DNA from: Emcibacter sp.
GTDB lineage: Bacteria > Pseudomonadota > Alphaproteobacteria > Sphingomonadales > Emcibacteraceae
Assembly: GCA_021774785.1 (NCBI GenBank)
Contig: JAJFIQ010000026.1
Location: 310,001 to 374,000, forward strand
Direction of reading: 5' to 3'
Length of the DNA: 64,000 nt
Part shown: piece by piece, positions 53,226 through 61,778 of the stretch
Position numbering within the stretch: the stretch's first letter is position 1
Layout: each line of letters starts with the position of its first letter
Notes under the pieces: model-generated
The model's database searches: none
What the model saw: the letters and a program-made list of their open reading frames with translations, nothing else
Told to the model about the DNA's origin: nothing
Position numbers and translations under genes: made by a program

Positions 53226-53491
53226 AGGGCCTTTTGACCTACTAGATTAGGACATTGGTTTGATCAAAGCTGTCCAATTTTAAGCACGAGGCCATAGGAC
53301 ATGCAAGCATATTCAAGGACCAGAGCTGCGAAAGTGGGCAGCTCTGATCAAATCCGATTAGGACGGGCCATATATTACCACTGGACATCATTATAAAATG
53401 CTTGAAGTGGGGGCGCTACGGCACATTTCATGCCTCACCAATGGTAATATATGGCCCGCCAATGTCCTAACCTAGTAGGTCAACAGGCCCT
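53226..53491. repeat. Nested inverted-repeat element, 266 bp, between korC and paaK
   Basis: Outer arms 53226-53258 and 53459-53491 are inverted repeats of 33 bp with 31 matches. Inner arms 53364-53384 and 53438-53458 are 21 bp with 20 matches. A 9-bp perfect hairpin CAGAGCTGC/GCAGCTCTG is at 53321-53346. The right arm abuts the inner arm, so one strand segment of about 54 nt could pair with two places. The right outer arm carries the last three codons and stop of the gamma-subunit gene. No open frame of note and no target-site duplication. It could be a MITE-like insertion or a structured transcript. Confidence 0.85.
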
Positions 53492-54022
53492 GACTCCTCG
53501 CGCAAGGTCCACGCCCGCCTGTAGCGCGTCCATGTTTAAATCCATAAATTTCTTTGGTGAGATTGTCCGAAGTGCTTTTTCGACTATTTCAAGTTCTATA
53601 TCATCTGACAATTCAGCAATAACCCCGGTTGCCACCACATTGGTCACCCGCTCAGACCCTAATCTGATGGCGGTTTCACTCAAGGGCAATTCGATTGTTT
53701 TGAATTTTCCCTCTGGTGGACATGTGGTACGTCTGGGGTCGATAATAACGATGGCATCGTCCCTGATGATGCCATCGGATGCGTTAGCCGCCGCCTGATC
53801 CAATATCAATACCGTATTCAGGTCTGTGGTCAGCGGATAATCCGGCGTACCTTCACTGGCAACGATATCAGCACGGCTAAGGCCACCGCGAGAGGTCGGC
53901 TCATAACTTTGTGACATAGATACATAATACCCTTCACCGGTCAGAGCCTTGGAAAATATCTTGGCACAGAGTTGCAGTCCCTGACCGCCGGCACCACTGA
54001 AACGCATTTCTAATGTTTTCAT
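53480..54022 (-). CDS. 2-oxoacid:ferredoxin oxidoreductase, gamma subunit
   Basis: 180 residues, standard size. The start LEMRFSGAGGQGLQLCAKIF has the GxGGQG motif of the POR gamma domain, then SYEPTSRGGLSRADIV and a conserved middle. It completes the alpha/beta/gamma enzyme with the two genes upstream and starts where the beta gene ends. Its final codons lie within the inverted-repeat element. The substrate is probably an aryl or branched 2-oxo acid, judging from paaK and ior genes. Confidence 0.9.
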   Translation of the reverse strand: MKTLEMRFSGAGGQGLQLCAKIFSKALTGEGYYVSMSQSYEPTSRGGLSRADIVASEGTPDYPLTTDLNTVLILDQAAANASDGIIRDDAIVIIDPRRTTCPPEGKFKTIELPLSETAIRLGSERVTNVVATGVIAELSDDIELEIVEKALRTISPKKFMDLNMDALQAGVDLARGVRAC

Positions 54023-54906
54023 TATTTCTGCCCCTTCTGTGTTAATCCCTGCAGCTGATCGACCATATTGCGATAGCTTTCGCCGTATTCCGGGCGGTCG
54101 GAGCGGACAAATACCCCCATATCCATACTGTTGGGCCGGAAGGGGTGATCAACCACATTATTGTCATACTCGCTCGGACGCATGGTACGGGTTTGGCCCA
54201 ATACCATTTCCGGTGATGAGCCCAGATCATTCTTGCGACCATTGACCTCTGTACAATCGGACATCACCTCAATAAAGGAGAAGCCCTTATATTCAAGCCC
54301 CTCTGAAATCAAATCCCGAAGACGCGGCAGATGGATGGTCAGCTCGCGACCGACAAATCCGGCGCCCGCCGCTTCCGCCAGACGGCTGGCATCAAAAACC
54401 GGCTCCATATTACCCGCAGGGGTGGTGGTGGTAAAACGATCATGGGGTGTTGTCGGTGATACCTGTCCGCCGGTCATGCCGTAAATCTCGTTATTAAGCA
54501 TCAGGCAGGTAATATCCAGATTACGTCGTGCCGCATGAATCAGGTGATTGCCGCCAATGGCGAGGCAATCACCATCACCGGTGATCACGATCACATGCAG
54601 ATCAGGACGCGCCATTTTAAGGCCCGTGGCAAAGGCCAAAGGCCGGCCGTGAGTAGTATGAAAAGTATTTGCATCAATATAGGTGCCAACCCGACCCGAG
54701 CATCCGATACCGCTGACAATGGCCAGCTTATCTTTGTCTATACCCTGTTCATGGATCGCCCAGAGCAGCGCCCGGAGTGCTATGCCGTGACCACAACCCG
54801 GACACATGAAATGGGGGAACAGATCAAGACGCAGATAATCGCGAATTTCAAAGTCTTTATTGTTTTCAGCTTGGGTTTCTTTTTTCAGGGCAACTTGCTC
54901 ATTCAT
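54022..54906 (-). CDS. 2-oxoacid:ferredoxin oxidoreductase, beta (TPP-binding) subunit
   Basis: 294 residues from the ATG at 54906, which has a consensus AAGGAGGT nine bases upstream; the in-frame ATG at 54927 lacks this. TPP/Mg motif GDGDCLAIGGNHLIHAARRN, preceded by the CPGCGHGIALRALL and GIGCSGR segments. It binds thiamine diphosphate and decarboxylates the 2-oxo acid. It overlaps the alpha gene's end by 8 bp. Confidence 0.93.
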   Translation of the reverse strand: MNEQVALKKETQAENNKDFEIRDYLRLDLFPHFMCPGCGHGIALRALLWAIHEQGIDKDKLAIVSGIGCSGRVGTYIDANTFHTTHGRPLAFATGLKMARPDLHVIVITGDGDCLAIGGNHLIHAARRNLDITCLMLNNEIYGMTGGQVSPTTPHDRFTTTTPAGNMEPVFDASRLAEAAGAGFVGRELTIHLPRLRDLISEGLEYKGFSFIEVMSDCTEVNGRKNDLGSSPEMVLGQTRTMRPSEYDNNVVDHPFRPNSMDMGVFVRSDRPEYGESYRNMVDQLQGLTQKGQK

Positions 54907-56044
54907 GGCCGAGCACCTCCTTGACACTTGTTACAATTTGGAACGGTGAAATGGGTTGACCGTCAAAACGATTCAGTCCGGAAACCGCCTGTTTATCAAC
55001 CTTGGCCGAGCCGATCTCCAGGATCAATTGTCCTGCATTCATTTCGGCTACCACAAAATGTTTGGCTTTTTTGGTCAGTTTACGAAAGCTCTTGGTGGGG
55101 AAAGGCCAGAGCGTAATCGGCCGGAAAAGACCTGCCTTAACACCCTGTGCGCGAAGTTCCCTCACCGCCTTGCGGGCCGCACGACCGACGACGCCGAGCG
55201 CCACGACTACCACTTCGGCATCCTTGCAGTCAACATCTTCAAAGCTTTCCACCAGATCATTATTGATCTCTATTTTGCCTAGCAGGCGTTGCATGACCGG
55301 TTCAACGACTTCCGCTTTCTGGGTCGGGAAGCCGCTTTCTTCAACGGTCAGACCCGTGGTATGAACTCTATAGCCATCACCGGGGCGCGCCATGGGAGGC
55401 ACACCATCCGCATCGGCTTTATAGGGCGAATAATCTTCCGGCTTGCCTGTGGCCCATTTGCGAACCGTATCTTCATAGGCTGTCACATCGGGCAGAGCGA
55501 AGGTTTCCACCAAATGACCCAGACTTTCATCAAACAGGACGGTCACCGGTATACGCAATTTTTCCGACAGGGCAAAAGCGCGGGCCGTCTGCTCATATAT
55601 TTCTTCCACTGATCCCGGCGTCAAAGCAATTACCGGATGGTCACCATGCGTGCCCCAGCGAGCCTGCATCAAATCACCTTGGGCCGGACGGGTCGGCATC
55701 CCCGTTGACGGGCCGCCGCGCATGACATTGATAATAACACAGGGCACTTCCGCCCCCATGCCGTAGCCGATATTTTCCTGTTTCAGGGAAAAACCAGGTC
55801 CACTTGTGGCGGTCATGGATTTAACCCCGCCCATGGATGCGCCGAGAGTTGCCGCGATTGAGGCAATTTCATCTTCCATCTGAAGAAATACGCCACCTAC
55901 CTTAGGCAGCTCTTTGGCTAATCTTTCCGCAACCTCAGACGATGGCGTGATCGGATATCCGGCATAAAACCGACATCCCGCCGCCACAGCCCCAAGGGCA
56001 CAGGCATGATTGCCTTGTAAATTTACGGTTTCTTGACCAGTCAT
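54899..56044 (-). CDS. 2-oxoacid:ferredoxin oxidoreductase, alpha subunit
   Basis: 381 residues. QGNHACALGAVAAGCRFYAGYPITPSSE is the POR_N pyrimidine-binding start (written here in part), with LQMEDEIASIAATLGASMGG and TATSGPGFSLKQENIGYG. The C-terminal domain ends with FRPITLWPFP, as in KorA/VorB. No gamma fusion, so the gamma subunit is separate. It overlaps the iorB-like gene at its start (ATGA). Confidence 0.93.
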   Translation of the reverse strand: MTGQETVNLQGNHACALGAVAAGCRFYAGYPITPSSEVAERLAKELPKVGGVFLQMEDEIASIAATLGASMGGVKSMTATSGPGFSLKQENIGYGMGAEVPCVIINVMRGGPSTGMPTRPAQGDLMQARWGTHGDHPVIALTPGSVEEIYEQTARAFALSEKLRIPVTVLFDESLGHLVETFALPDVTAYEDTVRKWATGKPEDYSPYKADADGVPPMARPGDGYRVHTTGLTVEESGFPTQKAEVVEPVMQRLLGKIEINNDLVESFEDVDCKDAEVVVVALGVVGRAARKAVRELRAQGVKAGLFRPITLWPFPTKSFRKLTKKAKHFVVAEMNAGQLILEIGSAKVDKQAVSGLNRFDGQPISPFQIVTSVKEVLGHE

Positions 56045-56997
56045 GCGACGGCCTCCTGAGTTATGGGATTAAGGGATATTGCAAAATCCGGGCAGAGCCA
56101 TTCACAAATATGGCAGCCGGTGCATTTTTCCGGTTCCGCCAGTTCTGCCACTTGGTCCTTATTCAGCACAAGACAGCGTTCGGGGCACATTTTGACGCAT
56201 ATGTCACAACCCTTGCACCATTCAGCCGTTATCTCCAACGTGTTGCGAACGCTGTTAAGTTCAGGCTGAACCAGGGGTACAAAGGCCGCGCCTTCCACCG
56301 GCTCACCCTTGCGCGAGCCATCAATCCAGTTCTGTCCCTGATCAAATACGGCTAGATTCACATCAACCGTTTTGGGCGGTACCATCTGAGCAATAACCTT
56401 TTTCCATTCTTCTGTTGGAAAGGTCAGCGTAGTGGATAATGCACCGAGCAACAATGTATTGGCCGCTCTCTCATTACCAGCTCTGGTTGCCATTTCTGTG
56501 GCATCCAGCGCAAAGGCCTCAGCAACTTTTTCCCGCACATCATCAGGGGTATCCTTGGAATAGCCAATGTCCGCGCCCAATATCCGTGAACGACAGGCAA
56601 AGGGCGGCACAATACGTTTGGTATCGGCGATAAATATGCCCGTTCCCGGACGCAGGTAACTCATCCAGCGCAGGCCCTCGGCCCATTCTAGCGCGATAAG
56701 AACATCTGCCTTGCCCATGGGAATAGTTGGTGACCAGACATTACTGCCAAAACGCACATGGCTGAACACCACACCACCACGTTTGGCCATGCCGTGAACC
56801 TCGCTTTGTTTCACTTCATAACCCAGATTCTGACAGATTAGAGCCAGCACCTTTGACACCATGATCACGCCCTGCCCGCCGACACCAACGATCAAAACAT
56901 TGATCGGTTCTTTCGTTTCTTTGGGGTCAAGCTTTGGTGGGTCTGCCAAAACGGCCATGACGCTATTATCTGTTTTCTTTACCTTTGCCATGATCAT
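56041..56997 (-). CDS. iorB: Indolepyruvate oxidoreductase beta-type subunit fused to a 2[4Fe-4S] ferredoxin domain
   Basis: 318 residues. Residues about 32-230 are the IorB/POR gamma-like domain (VLIVGVGGQGVIMVSKVLA; VHGMAKRGGVVFSHVRFG). Residues about 255-310 hold two 4Fe-4S motifs (CKGCDICVKMCPERC and CTGCHICEWLCPDF). Most IorB proteins of about 200 residues lack this fused ferredoxin, which could pass electrons for both the IorA partner and the Kor-type enzyme. Start overlaps the iorA stop (ATGA). Confidence 0.85.
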   Translation of the reverse strand: MIMAKVKKTDNSVMAVLADPPKLDPKETKEPINVLIVGVGGQGVIMVSKVLALICQNLGYEVKQSEVHGMAKRGGVVFSHVRFGSNVWSPTIPMGKADVLIALEWAEGLRWMSYLRPGTGIFIADTKRIVPPFACRSRILGADIGYSKDTPDDVREKVAEAFALDATEMATRAGNERAANTLLLGALSTTLTFPTEEWKKVIAQMVPPKTVDVNLAVFDQGQNWIDGSRKGEPVEGAAFVPLVQPELNSVRNTLEITAEWCKGCDICVKMCPERCLVLNKDQVAELAEPEKCTGCHICEWLCPDFAISLNPITQEAVA

Positions 56998-58850
56998 TCA
57001 ACTCCGCAAGGTTTAGCTTTTGCCGATTTCTGATCCAAAACCACCGTCGGCTGTATAGCACCGGTTGGACAGAATTGAGCACAGACCGAGCATCCTATGC
57101 AGGCCGTTGGGTCAATCTTGACAATATGGCGGCCTTCATACCATTCGTCGCTCCAGATCAAAGCCGGACAGCCCAGATTCATACAGCCCTGACAGGCGTT
57201 GCAATCCTTGGCATCCACACTCATGGACGGACCTTTGATTTTTACCGGATCAAGAACGCAGGGACGGTCAGCAATCAATACTGATACCCCGCGATAGGCA
57301 ATGGACTCGCGCATGGTCTGCATCATGGATGCCGCATCATAGCTGTCGACCCGTTCAATCCATTCCACACCGCAAGCCCGTATCATTTCTTCAAAATTGA
57401 TCTGATGGGTCTGCTCACCACGCAATGTTTTGCCGGTACCGGGGTTCTCCTGACCCCCGGTCATGGCAGTAATATGATTATCAAGCAGAATGACCGTGAT
57501 ATTGGCCTGATTATAAACCGCATCAATCAAGGGCGGTATGCCTGAATGTATGAACGTACTGTCACCGATGGTGGCCACGATAGGTTTGGTTTCGGTACCC
57601 GCCAGATACATACCGGTCGCATTGGCAATGCTCGAGCCCATGGCAACCGTAGTATCAATAGCGGTCAGGGGGTCACCCACTGCCAACGTATAACATCCAA
57701 TATCACCCGCGACCCTGACGTCTAGGCTTCGGATAGCGGTATAGCTCATGGCATGGGGACATCCGGCACAAAGTACCGGCGGGCGGATCAATGGTTCAAA
57801 CTGTGGGCCAAGGGCATTGGCTTCCGGCTCAAGAACGCCGGCCTGTTCAAAACTGATGCGGGTCTGTTCCGGGGAAAGCTCGCCGATGCGCGGGAAGAAT
57901 TCCTTGCCTTCCACTTTCAAACCCCATGTTTTAATCTCATTTTCAATAACCGGCTCCAGTTCCTCAACCACAATCACCCGATCATGCTTGGCACAGAAAT
58001 CCTGTATCAGTTTTTTAGGCAACGGAAAGGACAGGCCAAGTTTCAAGACACTGGCTTCCGGCAAATTTTCCTTCACATAGACATAGCTCATGCTGCTGGT
58101 GATAATGCCAATCTTGGATGAGCCCAACTCCAGACGATTCAAATCAGAGGTTTCAAGTTCCTCTGCCAACCTTTCCAGACGGTCAATGACCACGGGGTGG
58201 CGTTGGCGCGCATGACCGGGTACCATAACATTTTTGCTCACGTCCATATTAAATCCCAGATCATCAGGCGTTACCCGCTCGCTAACCAATACCGGGCTGC
58301 GGGTATGGGAAATACGGGTAGTGCTGCGGACCATGACCGGGGTGTCGTAACGTTCACTAATATCAAAAGCGATCTTAGTATAATCAAGGGCTTCCTGCGC
58401 ATCGCAGGGCTCCAGAACGGGAATTTGCGCAAAGCGTCCAAAAATCCGGCTATCCTGCTCATTCTGTGATGAATGAATACCCGGATCATCACAGACGATC
58501 AGAACCAAACCGCCGTGGGCGCCAATATAGGATTGCGACATCAGGGCATCTGAGGCCACATTCAAGCCCACATGCTTCATCATGGTCATGGCCCGAACAC
58601 CGGAAAAGGAAGCGCCGATGGCCACATCAAGGGCTACCTTTTCATTGGTCGCCCACTGAGCATGTACATCCCCCACCGGATAGCGGCCCATATTTTCCAT
58701 AATTTCCGTACTGGGCGTTCCCGGATAGGCAGAGGCAACCTTAACCCCGGCTTCCCACGCGGCCCGCGCTATGGCCTCATTTCCGGTCATCTGATGGGTT
58801 ATGCCTGTCTTGATCGCGGTTGGCGATGCCTGTTCAGCCTTTGAGCTCAT
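56994..58850 (-). CDS. iorA: Indolepyruvate:ferredoxin oxidoreductase, alpha subunit
   Basis: 618 residues from the ATG at 58850, six bases after GGGAG; the frame is open to 58952 but that part is not conserved. Pyruvate-oxidoreductase domains (MTGNEAIARAAWEAGVKVAS), TPP motif GDSTFIHSGIPPLIDAVYN, and a C-terminal 2[4Fe-4S] domain (CNACQGCMNLGCPAL and CIGCSVCAQFCPTGAI). It oxidises aryl pyruvates (indolepyruvate, phenylpyruvate) to aryl acetyl-CoA. It is first in the operon and divergent from ubiT over 329 bp. Confidence 0.93.
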   Translation of the reverse strand: MSSKAEQASPTAIKTGITHQMTGNEAIARAAWEAGVKVASAYPGTPSTEIMENMGRYPVGDVHAQWATNEKVALDVAIGASFSGVRAMTMMKHVGLNVASDALMSQSYIGAHGGLVLIVCDDPGIHSSQNEQDSRIFGRFAQIPVLEPCDAQEALDYTKIAFDISERYDTPVMVRSTTRISHTRSPVLVSERVTPDDLGFNMDVSKNVMVPGHARQRHPVVIDRLERLAEELETSDLNRLELGSSKIGIITSSMSYVYVKENLPEASVLKLGLSFPLPKKLIQDFCAKHDRVIVVEELEPVIENEIKTWGLKVEGKEFFPRIGELSPEQTRISFEQAGVLEPEANALGPQFEPLIRPPVLCAGCPHAMSYTAIRSLDVRVAGDIGCYTLAVGDPLTAIDTTVAMGSSIANATGMYLAGTETKPIVATIGDSTFIHSGIPPLIDAVYNQANITVILLDNHITAMTGGQENPGTGKTLRGEQTHQINFEEMIRACGVEWIERVDSYDAASMMQTMRESIAYRGVSVLIADRPCVLDPVKIKGPSMSVDAKDCNACQGCMNLGCPALIWSDEWYEGRHIVKIDPTACIGCSVCAQFCPTGAIQPTVVLDQKSAKAKPCGVE

Positions 58851-59179
58851 GCTCATCTCCCGTTGATAGTGATACAATAATTTATATAAATCCAAATAAA
58901 ATGTATCATATTTATAAATTTTAGCAAGTATAAAACATTGGATTTGCATCAATTGAGGAAAGAAAAAATCTCATATTTTTACTTATAAGAAAGAAAATTT
59001 CCCGAACGGTCGGTTAACTAATTGTTATTTCACAGTTTTACCAATTGATATAAGCCGGAAAAAAATTTCCCCTGCTTCTGAAACATCAACAAAAACAGGT
59101 CATTACACATGTTATTCATTGATATGGATCAATCATAGGAGCGGCCAAATAGGCTATAAAATGCCTTAATGTAACGATT
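58851..59179. promoter_or_regulatory. Divergent region iorA / ubiT with FNR-type site and class II promoter
   Basis: A perfect FNR/ANR consensus TTGATATGGATCAA is at 59119-59132 (TTGAT-N4-ATCAA). A -10-like TATAAA at 59155-59160 places the start near 59167, so the site is centred about 41.5 bp upstream, the class II activation geometry. This predicts oxygen-controlled transcription of ubiTUV. The left half of the gap (58851-59040) is AT-rich with only a weak, mis-spaced TTGGATTTGCATCAA near 58939 toward iorA. Confidence 0.8.
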
Positions 59180-59899
59180 ATGGCTGGAAAATTCCGACTC
59201 ATGTCCTCCAAAACAGAAAATCACACGGCTCATGAAGCCTTCTCACCCCTGCTTGTAGCAGGGATGGTGATCCGGCCTTTGCCTGTGGCCCCGTTAAACC
59301 GGCTCTTACAGCATTTGACCGCTCACATTCAGATTAATCATCCGGCAATTCTGGAAAGGCTGCGTCCCCTCAATGGAAAACACTTTCTTATATGCCCCGC
59401 CGACATTCCCCATGAAATGCGTCTTATCGTTGGTGATGGTCACGTGGAATGCCTGATAGAAGATGAATTTATGGGTCCGGTGGATGTGACCATCTCCGGC
59501 CCTTTTTTATCGCTAATGGATATGATGGACGGTAAAGTGGACGGTGATGCGCTATTCTTCTCCCGCAATCTTACCGTAGAGGGAGATACAGAAGCCCTGC
59601 TTACCCTGCGCAATGCCATGGACAGTGACGACATTGACCTGCGTGCAGAAATTCTGGCGAGTTTTGGCCCGCTGAAAAGTCCGTTAGCCGCAGCCTTAAA
59701 TATCGGTGAGTATCTGTTTCATAGCCTGTCCCGTGATATGAGCAGCCTCAGTCACGCTTTGACCAAACCGTTATCAAATCGCTGTGACGGTCTGGAACAG
59801 GAAAATCAGGGTCTTCACGATAAGGTGGCGCAATTGGACAAGATGCTCACCAAAACACAGAATAGGCTGCAAAGCTTAAGCCGAAAGACAAGCCTATGA
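59180..59899 (+). CDS. ubiT: UbiT, SCP2-domain lipid carrier for O2-independent ubiquinone synthesis
   Basis: 239 residues from 59180, or 232 from the ATG at 59201, which suits the predicted transcription start better. The SCP2-like sterol-binding domain (about 15-170) includes LLVAGMVIRPLPVAPLNRLL, ADIPHEMRLIVGDG, GDALFFSRNLTVEGDTEALL and DSDDIDLRAEILAS. The C-terminal 60 residues look helical or coiled. UbiT binds ubiquinone intermediates for the UbiU-UbiV hydroxylases. The operon order ubiT-ubiU-ubiV and overlap with ubiU (ATGA-type) confirm it. Confidence 0.92.
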   Translation: MAGKFRLMSSKTENHTAHEAFSPLLVAGMVIRPLPVAPLNRLLQHLTAHIQINHPAILERLRPLNGKHFLICPADIPHEMRLIVGDGHVECLIEDEFMGPVDVTISGPFLSLMDMMDGKVDGDALFFSRNLTVEGDTEALLTLRNAMDSDDIDLRAEILASFGPLKSPLAAALNIGEYLFHSLSRDMSSLSHALTKPLSNRCDGLEQENQGLHDKVAQLDKMLTKTQNRLQSLSRKTSL

Positions 59900-60879
59900 C
59901 AAAGTTAGAACTCGTCTGTCCCGCTGGCACCCCTGCGGCCCTACGCGTTGCCGTGGATGCGGGAGCCGATGCGGTTTATATGGGGTTTCGCGACGAAACC
60001 AATGCTCGAAATTTTCCGGGCCTGAATTTCTCCGTTGATGAGCTTTCCGAAGCCCTAGATTATGCCCATGCGGCGGGGGCGAAAGTGCTTTTGGCGGTAA
60101 ATACCTATGCGGCGGCGGGCAATAGCGAACCATGGATAAAGGCTGTGGATAATGCAGCAAAATTAAACGTTGATGCCATCATCATGGCAGATATAGGCTT
60201 GCTGGATTATGCCCACCGCACCCATCCTGATCTGCGACTGCATCTGTCTGTGCAGGCTTCGGCCTCCAATGCGGTAGCCATTAATCATTATACAAAAGAA
60301 TTCAATATCCGGCGTGTGGTTCTGCCGCGCGTGCTGACCGTGCCGGAAATCCGCGACATCAATAGCAAGATCGCCATCAACACAGAGGTATTTGCCTTTG
60401 GCGGCATGTGTCCCATGGCAGAAGGCCGGTGCAGCATGTCATCCTATATTACCGGAAAATCCCCCAATATGAACGGCGTATGCTCGCCCGCCAGCCATGT
60501 GACTTATATTCAGCAGGGTCATGACCTCAAAACCAATCTGGCGGATTTCACCATCAATAAATTCGGGCCAAATGAGCAAGCGGGTTATCCCACCCTGTGC
60601 AAAGGACGGTTTACGGCAAATGAAGAAACAGGCTATCTGTTCGAGGAGCCAACCAGTCTGAATGCCACCGGTATCTTGCTGGAACTGATGGAAGCCGGGG
60701 TCACCGCCCTTAAAATCGAAGGCCGTCAGCGCAGCAAGGCTTATGTGCGTGAAGTGGTGCAGAATTTCCGTGCCGCCATTGATGCTGCCGAGCAGGGTGA
60801 ACGGATGGTCATAGAAATGGATAACCTGTCCGAAGGTGGACAGAATACAACGGGGGCCTATAATAAAAAATGGATGTAA
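59896..60879 (+). CDS. ubiU: UbiU, [4Fe-4S] U32-family hydroxylase subunit for anaerobic ubiquinone synthesis
   Basis: 327 residues. Peptidase-U32 fold (LELVCPAGTPAALRVAVDAG; VYMGFRDETNARNFPG). Cluster ligands Cys172, Cys179, Cys196 and Cys235 (GGMCPMAEGRC, GVCSPAS, LCKGRF) have exactly the spacing of E. coli UbiU. With UbiV it hydroxylates the quinone ring using prephenate as oxygen donor. The last bases overlap ubiV. Confidence 0.95.
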   Translation: MTKLELVCPAGTPAALRVAVDAGADAVYMGFRDETNARNFPGLNFSVDELSEALDYAHAAGAKVLLAVNTYAAAGNSEPWIKAVDNAAKLNVDAIIMADIGLLDYAHRTHPDLRLHLSVQASASNAVAINHYTKEFNIRRVVLPRVLTVPEIRDINSKIAINTEVFAFGGMCPMAEGRCSMSSYITGKSPNMNGVCSPASHVTYIQQGHDLKTNLADFTINKFGPNEQAGYPTLCKGRFTANEETGYLFEEPTSLNATGILLELMEAGVTALKIEGRQRSKAYVREVVQNFRAAIDAAEQGERMVIEMDNLSEGGQNTTGAYNKKWM

Positions 60880-61778
60880 TGAATAACGCTAAACTTTCAC
60901 TTGGACCATTATTATTTAATTGGGATAGTGACAAAATCCGTGATTTTTATTTTGCCATCGCCGATGAAGCCCCCATAGACTATGTCTATCTGGGCGAAGT
61001 GGTTTGCGCAAAAAGACTGGCCGGCAAAAACTATTTGCCCGAGGTGGTGGAGCGACTGGATAATGCCGGTAAAAAGATTATCTTTTCCGGTCTTATGCTG
61101 GTGCTCGATAACAGAGATATGACCGCACTGGAAAGCGTAGCTGCCATGGCCCCGGAATATCTGATTGAAGCCAATGATATGTCCGCCGTGAGCATGTTGT
61201 GGCAGCAAAATCATGCCATCGGACCCTTTATCAATATCTATAATGAAGCGACCCTGAAATATTATGAGGACGGGGGGGCCACGCGTATCTCCCTGCCGCC
61301 GGAACTGCCTGCAAAATCACTTCGCGCCCTAGCAAAGGTCGCCCGGTCAGAACTGGAGGTGCAGATATTTGGTCGCCTGCCACTAGCCATATCTTCGCGC
61401 TGTTACCATGCCCGTGCCCACAAGCTACACAAGGATGGCTGCCAGTATGTATGCGAAAAGGATCCGGACGGCATGACGGTAGATACCATGGACGGGCAGA
61501 AGTTTCTGACCATCAACGGTCTGCAAACCCTGTCCTACAGCTATTGTAATCTGATGGCAGAGCTGCCGGAGCTTGGGCAGATGGGCATTCAGAATTTCCG
61601 CCTCTCGCCCCATGATGTGGATATGGTTAAAGTTAGCCGCATATACCGGAACCGTCTTGATGGAAAAATTGACCTTGAAGAAGCAAACGACATTCTGGAA
61701 GCGGAAATGTTTGCCACCCGCTTTTCCAATGGTTATTATCACGACGAACCCGGCCAGAAACAGGTCGAAACATCATAA
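60870..61778 (+). CDS. ubiV: UbiV, [4Fe-4S] U32-family hydroxylase subunit for anaerobic ubiquinone synthesis
   Basis: 302 residues. Starts SLGPLLFNWDSDKIRDFY; first ligand Cys46 (GEVVCAKRL) and the later triple C-x12-C-x3-C (SSRCYHARAHKLHKDGC, YVCEKD) match the E. coli UbiV ligands. The start is at 60870 or at 60879, where TAATG joins it to the ubiU stop. Forms the UbiU-UbiV heterodimer. Confidence 0.95.
   Translation: MDVMNNAKLSLGPLLFNWDSDKIRDFYFAIADEAPIDYVYLGEVVCAKRLAGKNYLPEVVERLDNAGKKIIFSGLMLVLDNRDMTALESVAAMAPEYLIEANDMSAVSMLWQQNHAIGPFINIYNEATLKYYEDGGATRISLPPELPAKSLRALAKVARSELEVQIFGRLPLAISSRCYHARAHKLHKDGCQYVCEKDPDGMTVDTMDGQKFLTINGLQTLSYSYCNLMAELPELGQMGIQNFRLSPHDVDMVKVSRIYRNRLDGKIDLEEANDILEAEMFATRFSNGYYHDEPGQKQVETS

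Follow-up and report, generated by a model that had tools for sequence, protein, structure and literature searches.

The ubiTUV operon of Emcibacter sp. very probably has a class II FNR-dependent promoter, served by an FnrL/FnrN-like dimer that would be active at low oxygen, and induction of the operon under these conditions is a well-supported prediction. The predicted promoter lies in a 64 kb stretch of DNA that was analysed as a whole (the window), and it was compared with the rest of the genome and with the corresponding loci of relatives.

The ubiTUV genes and the predicted promoter

The following features of the window, all on the + strand, make up the operon and its predicted promoter:

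59119-59132, +: FNR-type site TTGATATGGATCAA, centre 59125.5; an exact palindrome, kept upstream of ubiT in relatives
59155-59160, +: -10-like hexamer TATAAA, in class II geometry with its first base 29.5 bp from the site centre
59201-59899, +: ubiT, encoding the SCP2-domain protein UbiT (NF047962, 80.8 bits, cut-off 46.9); start set by N-terminus comparison
59896-60879, +: ubiU, encoding a U32-family protein of O2-independent ubiquinone hydroxylation (NF047963, 510 bits, cut-off 440)
60870-61778, +: ubiV, encoding the U32-family partner of UbiU (NF047965, 348 bits, cut-off 275)

UbiT, UbiU and UbiV are encoded side by side and each exceeds its NCBIfam equivalog cut-off, the combination by which we recognise the ubiTUV pathway; the genes follow each other in the order ubiT, ubiU, ubiV with overlapping ends. 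The longest ubiT open reading frame begins at 59180, and the ATG at 59201 is its codon 8. At four loci of relatives (L042, L006, L007 and L009) no start codon is found at the position matching 59180; the earliest one available is the methionine that aligns with codon 8. This suggests that ubiT starts at ATG 59201 rather than at 59180, the likelier choice because relatives such as L042 lack a start codon at the first position; the leader would then be about 34 nt long. A UbiH/F/I-family ubiquinone hydroxylase that depends on O2 is encoded in the genome as well (TIGR01988, 443.7 bits, cut-off 224.65), and the O2-independent route therefore comes on top of it.

The sequence-only reading had placed a perfect FNR site before ubiTUV, and this holds: the stretch at 59119-59132 matches TTGATNNNNATCAA, the palindrome by which class II membership was judged, at every position and is the sole exact match in the window. 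The whole 3.5 Mb genome has 20 exact copies, compared with none for the reversed-pattern control. A scan of the window allowing up to two mismatches returned 66 matches against 48.6 expected, a yield that makes it useless for judging single sites. The distance from the site centre to the first base of TATAAA is 29.5 bp; with this base taken as -12, the spacing gives a predicted transcription start near 59167 and a site at -41.5, which is the classical class II position. A site with TATAAA 16–24 bp behind it would turn up by chance 0.01 times per window. The earlier prediction of a site near -41.5, ahead of TATAAA, agrees with the spacing and with the conservation of the hexamer in relatives.

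Conservation in relatives and the divergent ior-kor side

Conservation of the site in relatives had been proposed as a check, and it came out in favour of the site. Of the 38 named loci whose upstream DNA was long enough, 31 carry TTGANNNNNNTCAA within 450 bp upstream of ubiT and none carries the reversed pattern, against a background of about 0.02–0.025 per locus for 450-bp stretches from the rest of the loci; the 38 loci are not mutually independent, and the tiny binomial P value therefore overstates the enrichment. The exact site is absent upstream of ubiT in the other seven. All Emcibacter-clade loci with the site (UbiU identity 83–100%) keep TTGA(C/T)....(A/G)TCAA, followed by a TATA-like, TA-rich hexamer at an identical offset, its first base lying precisely 36 bases after that of the site in every case. 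Over the 31 relatives, TA is found at the class II hexamer offset in 27, compared with 0–15 at any other offset, and the match to TATAAT also peaks there. Among relatives, sequence divergence has altered the stretch between site and hexamer but left the spacing unchanged.

Upstream of the site, on the opposite strand, the window holds two further features:

53480-58850, -: ior-kor operon of five genes, iorA, iorB (with an extra ferredoxin domain), korA, korB and korC, for indolepyruvate- and 2-oxoglutarate-type 2-oxoacid:ferredoxin oxidoreductases
58952-58939, -, with TATAAA at 58916-58911: imperfect FNR-like site TTGATGCAAATCCA, which faces iorA with the same 29.5 bp spacing

The group iorA-iorB-korA adjoins ubiTUV across the Emcibacter clade. 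Between the two operons, at 58851-59075, the ior side shows elements conserved in relatives, namely a TGATACA...TGTATCA inverted repeat, GCAAGNANAAAAC and CGAACGNTCGGTTAACTAATTGTTT; these may represent the ior promoter and operators for other regulators.

Two alternative explanations bear directly on these data. That the palindrome before ubiT is a functionless chance occurrence is barely credible: chance copies do exist, 12 of the 20 exact genomic sites falling inside genes, but this reading is refuted in practice by the conservation of both site and spacing across relatives despite diverged flanking DNA. We also consider it very unlikely that the FNR-type site controls, additionally or mainly, the divergent ior-kor operon, with TTGATGCAAATCCA as part of a second FNR-like promoter on that side. 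Such a role would suit ferredoxin oxidoreductases, which are oxygen-sensitive enzymes, and the imperfect site stands at exactly the right distance from its TATAAA in the window; against this, it is missing from all nine relatives that have the same divergent gene pair, where the ior side bears other conserved elements. The second FNR promoter was therefore rejected, its spacing in the window being probably due to chance.

Candidate readers of the site

The genome encodes one protein with the features expected of an oxygen-sensing reader, and a second member of the CRP/FNR family is encoded near ubiTUV; both lie outside the window:

C19:178620-179414: FnrL/FnrN-like protein of 265 aa, assigned by its cluster cysteines and recognition helix
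C19:384496-386079 (L085:297-1883, L179:10997-12583): NIT-CRP fusion P0001, with NIT, cNMP-binding and Crp-type HTH domains

The FnrL-like protein has CDGCSSRHISLC near its N-terminus (CX2CX7C) plus a distal cysteine, and its recognition helix contains ETISR (pattern E-T-I/V-S-R), giving the genome an FNR-type protein with presumptive cluster cysteines as well as an E..SR helix. The four presumptive cluster cysteines are present in all 23 FnrL orthologues. The best models for the protein are FnrL, FixK and Fnr, yet it stays under the curated NCBIfam cut-offs (170 vs 300); the closest solved structures in the PDB are FixK2 and FNR. The gene for this protein is divergent from a uspA gene, and the stretch separating the two holds an FNR-type site.

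Other FNR-type sites of the genome, which has 39 TTGAYNNNNRTCAA palindromes, outline a putative regulon of anaerobic respiration. Intergenic sites face genes for a cytochrome cd1 (nirS-like), a norQ/cbbQ-like protein, nosR, ccoN, ccmC and moaA, and further ones face two uspA genes, boxC, ompW and the narK-narGHJI operon. TA occupies the class II offset in 12 of 30 other gene-facing directions, compared with about three at other offsets (P ~2e-5). Denitrification genes are thus present in this marine alphaproteobacterium, and denitrification would need ubiquinone made anaerobically. The boxC gene (2,3-epoxybenzoyl-CoA dihydrolase) has its site, TTGACATAGATCAA, 54 bp upstream (C24:152418; L106:1919), a hint that the benzoyl-CoA epoxidation pathway may be controlled by oxygen.

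From the sequence and geometry of the site, the gene identities, the conservation, the presence of the regulator and the related sites, we infer binding, start site, oxygen response and physiological purpose as follows. At low oxygen, an FNR-type dimer (FnrL/FnrN-like) with an intact iron-sulphur cluster would bind TTGATATGGATCAA at -41.5 and contact RNA polymerase beside the TATAAA -10 element; the transcript from about 59167 would carry ubiT, ubiU and ubiV, and the cell could thereby make ubiquinone without O2 during nitrate and nitrite respiration. FnrL is the most likely reader of the ubiT site, and possibly not the sole one.

Some 12 kb past ubiTUV comes a nar cluster with two narK genes, narG, narH, a presumed narJ and narI, followed by the divergent gene for P0001 and then by moaA. 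P0001 has a cysteine-rich C-terminus and is encoded in almost every genome of the genus. A literature search for NIT domains fused to CRP/FNR proteins brought up no recognisable description of this architecture.

It is possible, though on balance unlikely, that a CRP/FNR-family protein other than FnrL, sharing its half-site specificity, reads the ubiT site wholly or partly, the likeliest being P0001 some 12–14 kb away, with nitrate/nitrite control of the NarR/DNR type instead of or alongside oxygen. P0001 joins its NIT domain to a cNMP-binding and a Crp-type HTH domain, its recognition helix contains P-E-T-F-S-R, similar to the FnrL-like helix, and it resembles DNR and related CRP-family structures in the PDB. 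The P0001 gene shares a contig with ubiU, at a distance of no more than about 15 kb, both here and in five relatives (G002, G005, G006, G010 and G012), and both this gene and moaA are preceded by FNR-type sites, in relatives too. The 95% complete genome of one relative (G009; L050, the same locus as L006) retains the ubiT site and its spacing, and a search of it for a cysteine-bearing FNR protein found none; a missing contig is a possible explanation for the absent FnrL at this completeness, or another member of the CRP/FNR family may read the site there. Precedent comes from Paracoccus, where the nar genes are under the joint action of FnrP and NarR (PMC3541799). Against such a role, most relatives that have the ubiT site also have FnrL, similar sites stand before ccoN and uspA, which are typical FNR targets, and the half-site specificity assumed for P0001 is putative. 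A combined arrangement, which we put forward as doubtful, would have the ubiTUV promoter shared by oxygen-sensing FnrL and the nitrate/nitrite-sensing one-component NIT-CRP fusion, and would couple the anaerobic synthesis of ubiquinone with nitrate respiration by way of the region in which ubiTUV, nar, NIT-CRP and moaA are linked in the Emcibacter clade.

Relation to known systems

FNR control of ubiTUV is not new and has been published across Pseudomonadota: a survey reported candidate FNR sites at 1362 of 1566 ubiTUV triplets (87%) and proposed conserved FNR control (PMC11707229). The site described here is of the same kind; what is new relative to that survey is the fine geometry in the Emcibacter clade and the linkage to nar genes. 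In E. coli, where FNR control of the O2-independent ubiquinone genes has been shown, the ubiUV and ubiT promoters likewise have FNR-type sites and anaerobic activation, which for Emcibacter sp. is predicted; ubiT and ubiUV are, however, divergent in E. coli with two imperfect sites, whereas Emcibacter sp. has a ubiTUV operon with one perfect predicted site (PMC10470549). Emcibacter sp. likewise resembles the alphaproteobacterium Sphingopyxis granuli TFA, which also has ubiT first, a single Fnr box, an FnrN/FixK protein with cluster cysteines and nitrate respiration. There the box lies at -40.5 before ubiT and FNR control was inferred in a study that has transcriptome and mutant data, whereas in Emcibacter sp. 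the position is a predicted -41.5 (PMC7713065).

The ubiTUV promoter of Emcibacter sp. is thus an ordinary further example, at nucleotide resolution and in a little-studied marine group, of O2-independent ubiquinone synthesis that is probably wired to the regulon of anaerobic respiration. Its one new element is that ubiTUV stands in conserved linkage with a NIT-CRP regulator, so that an input from nitrate becomes open to testing.
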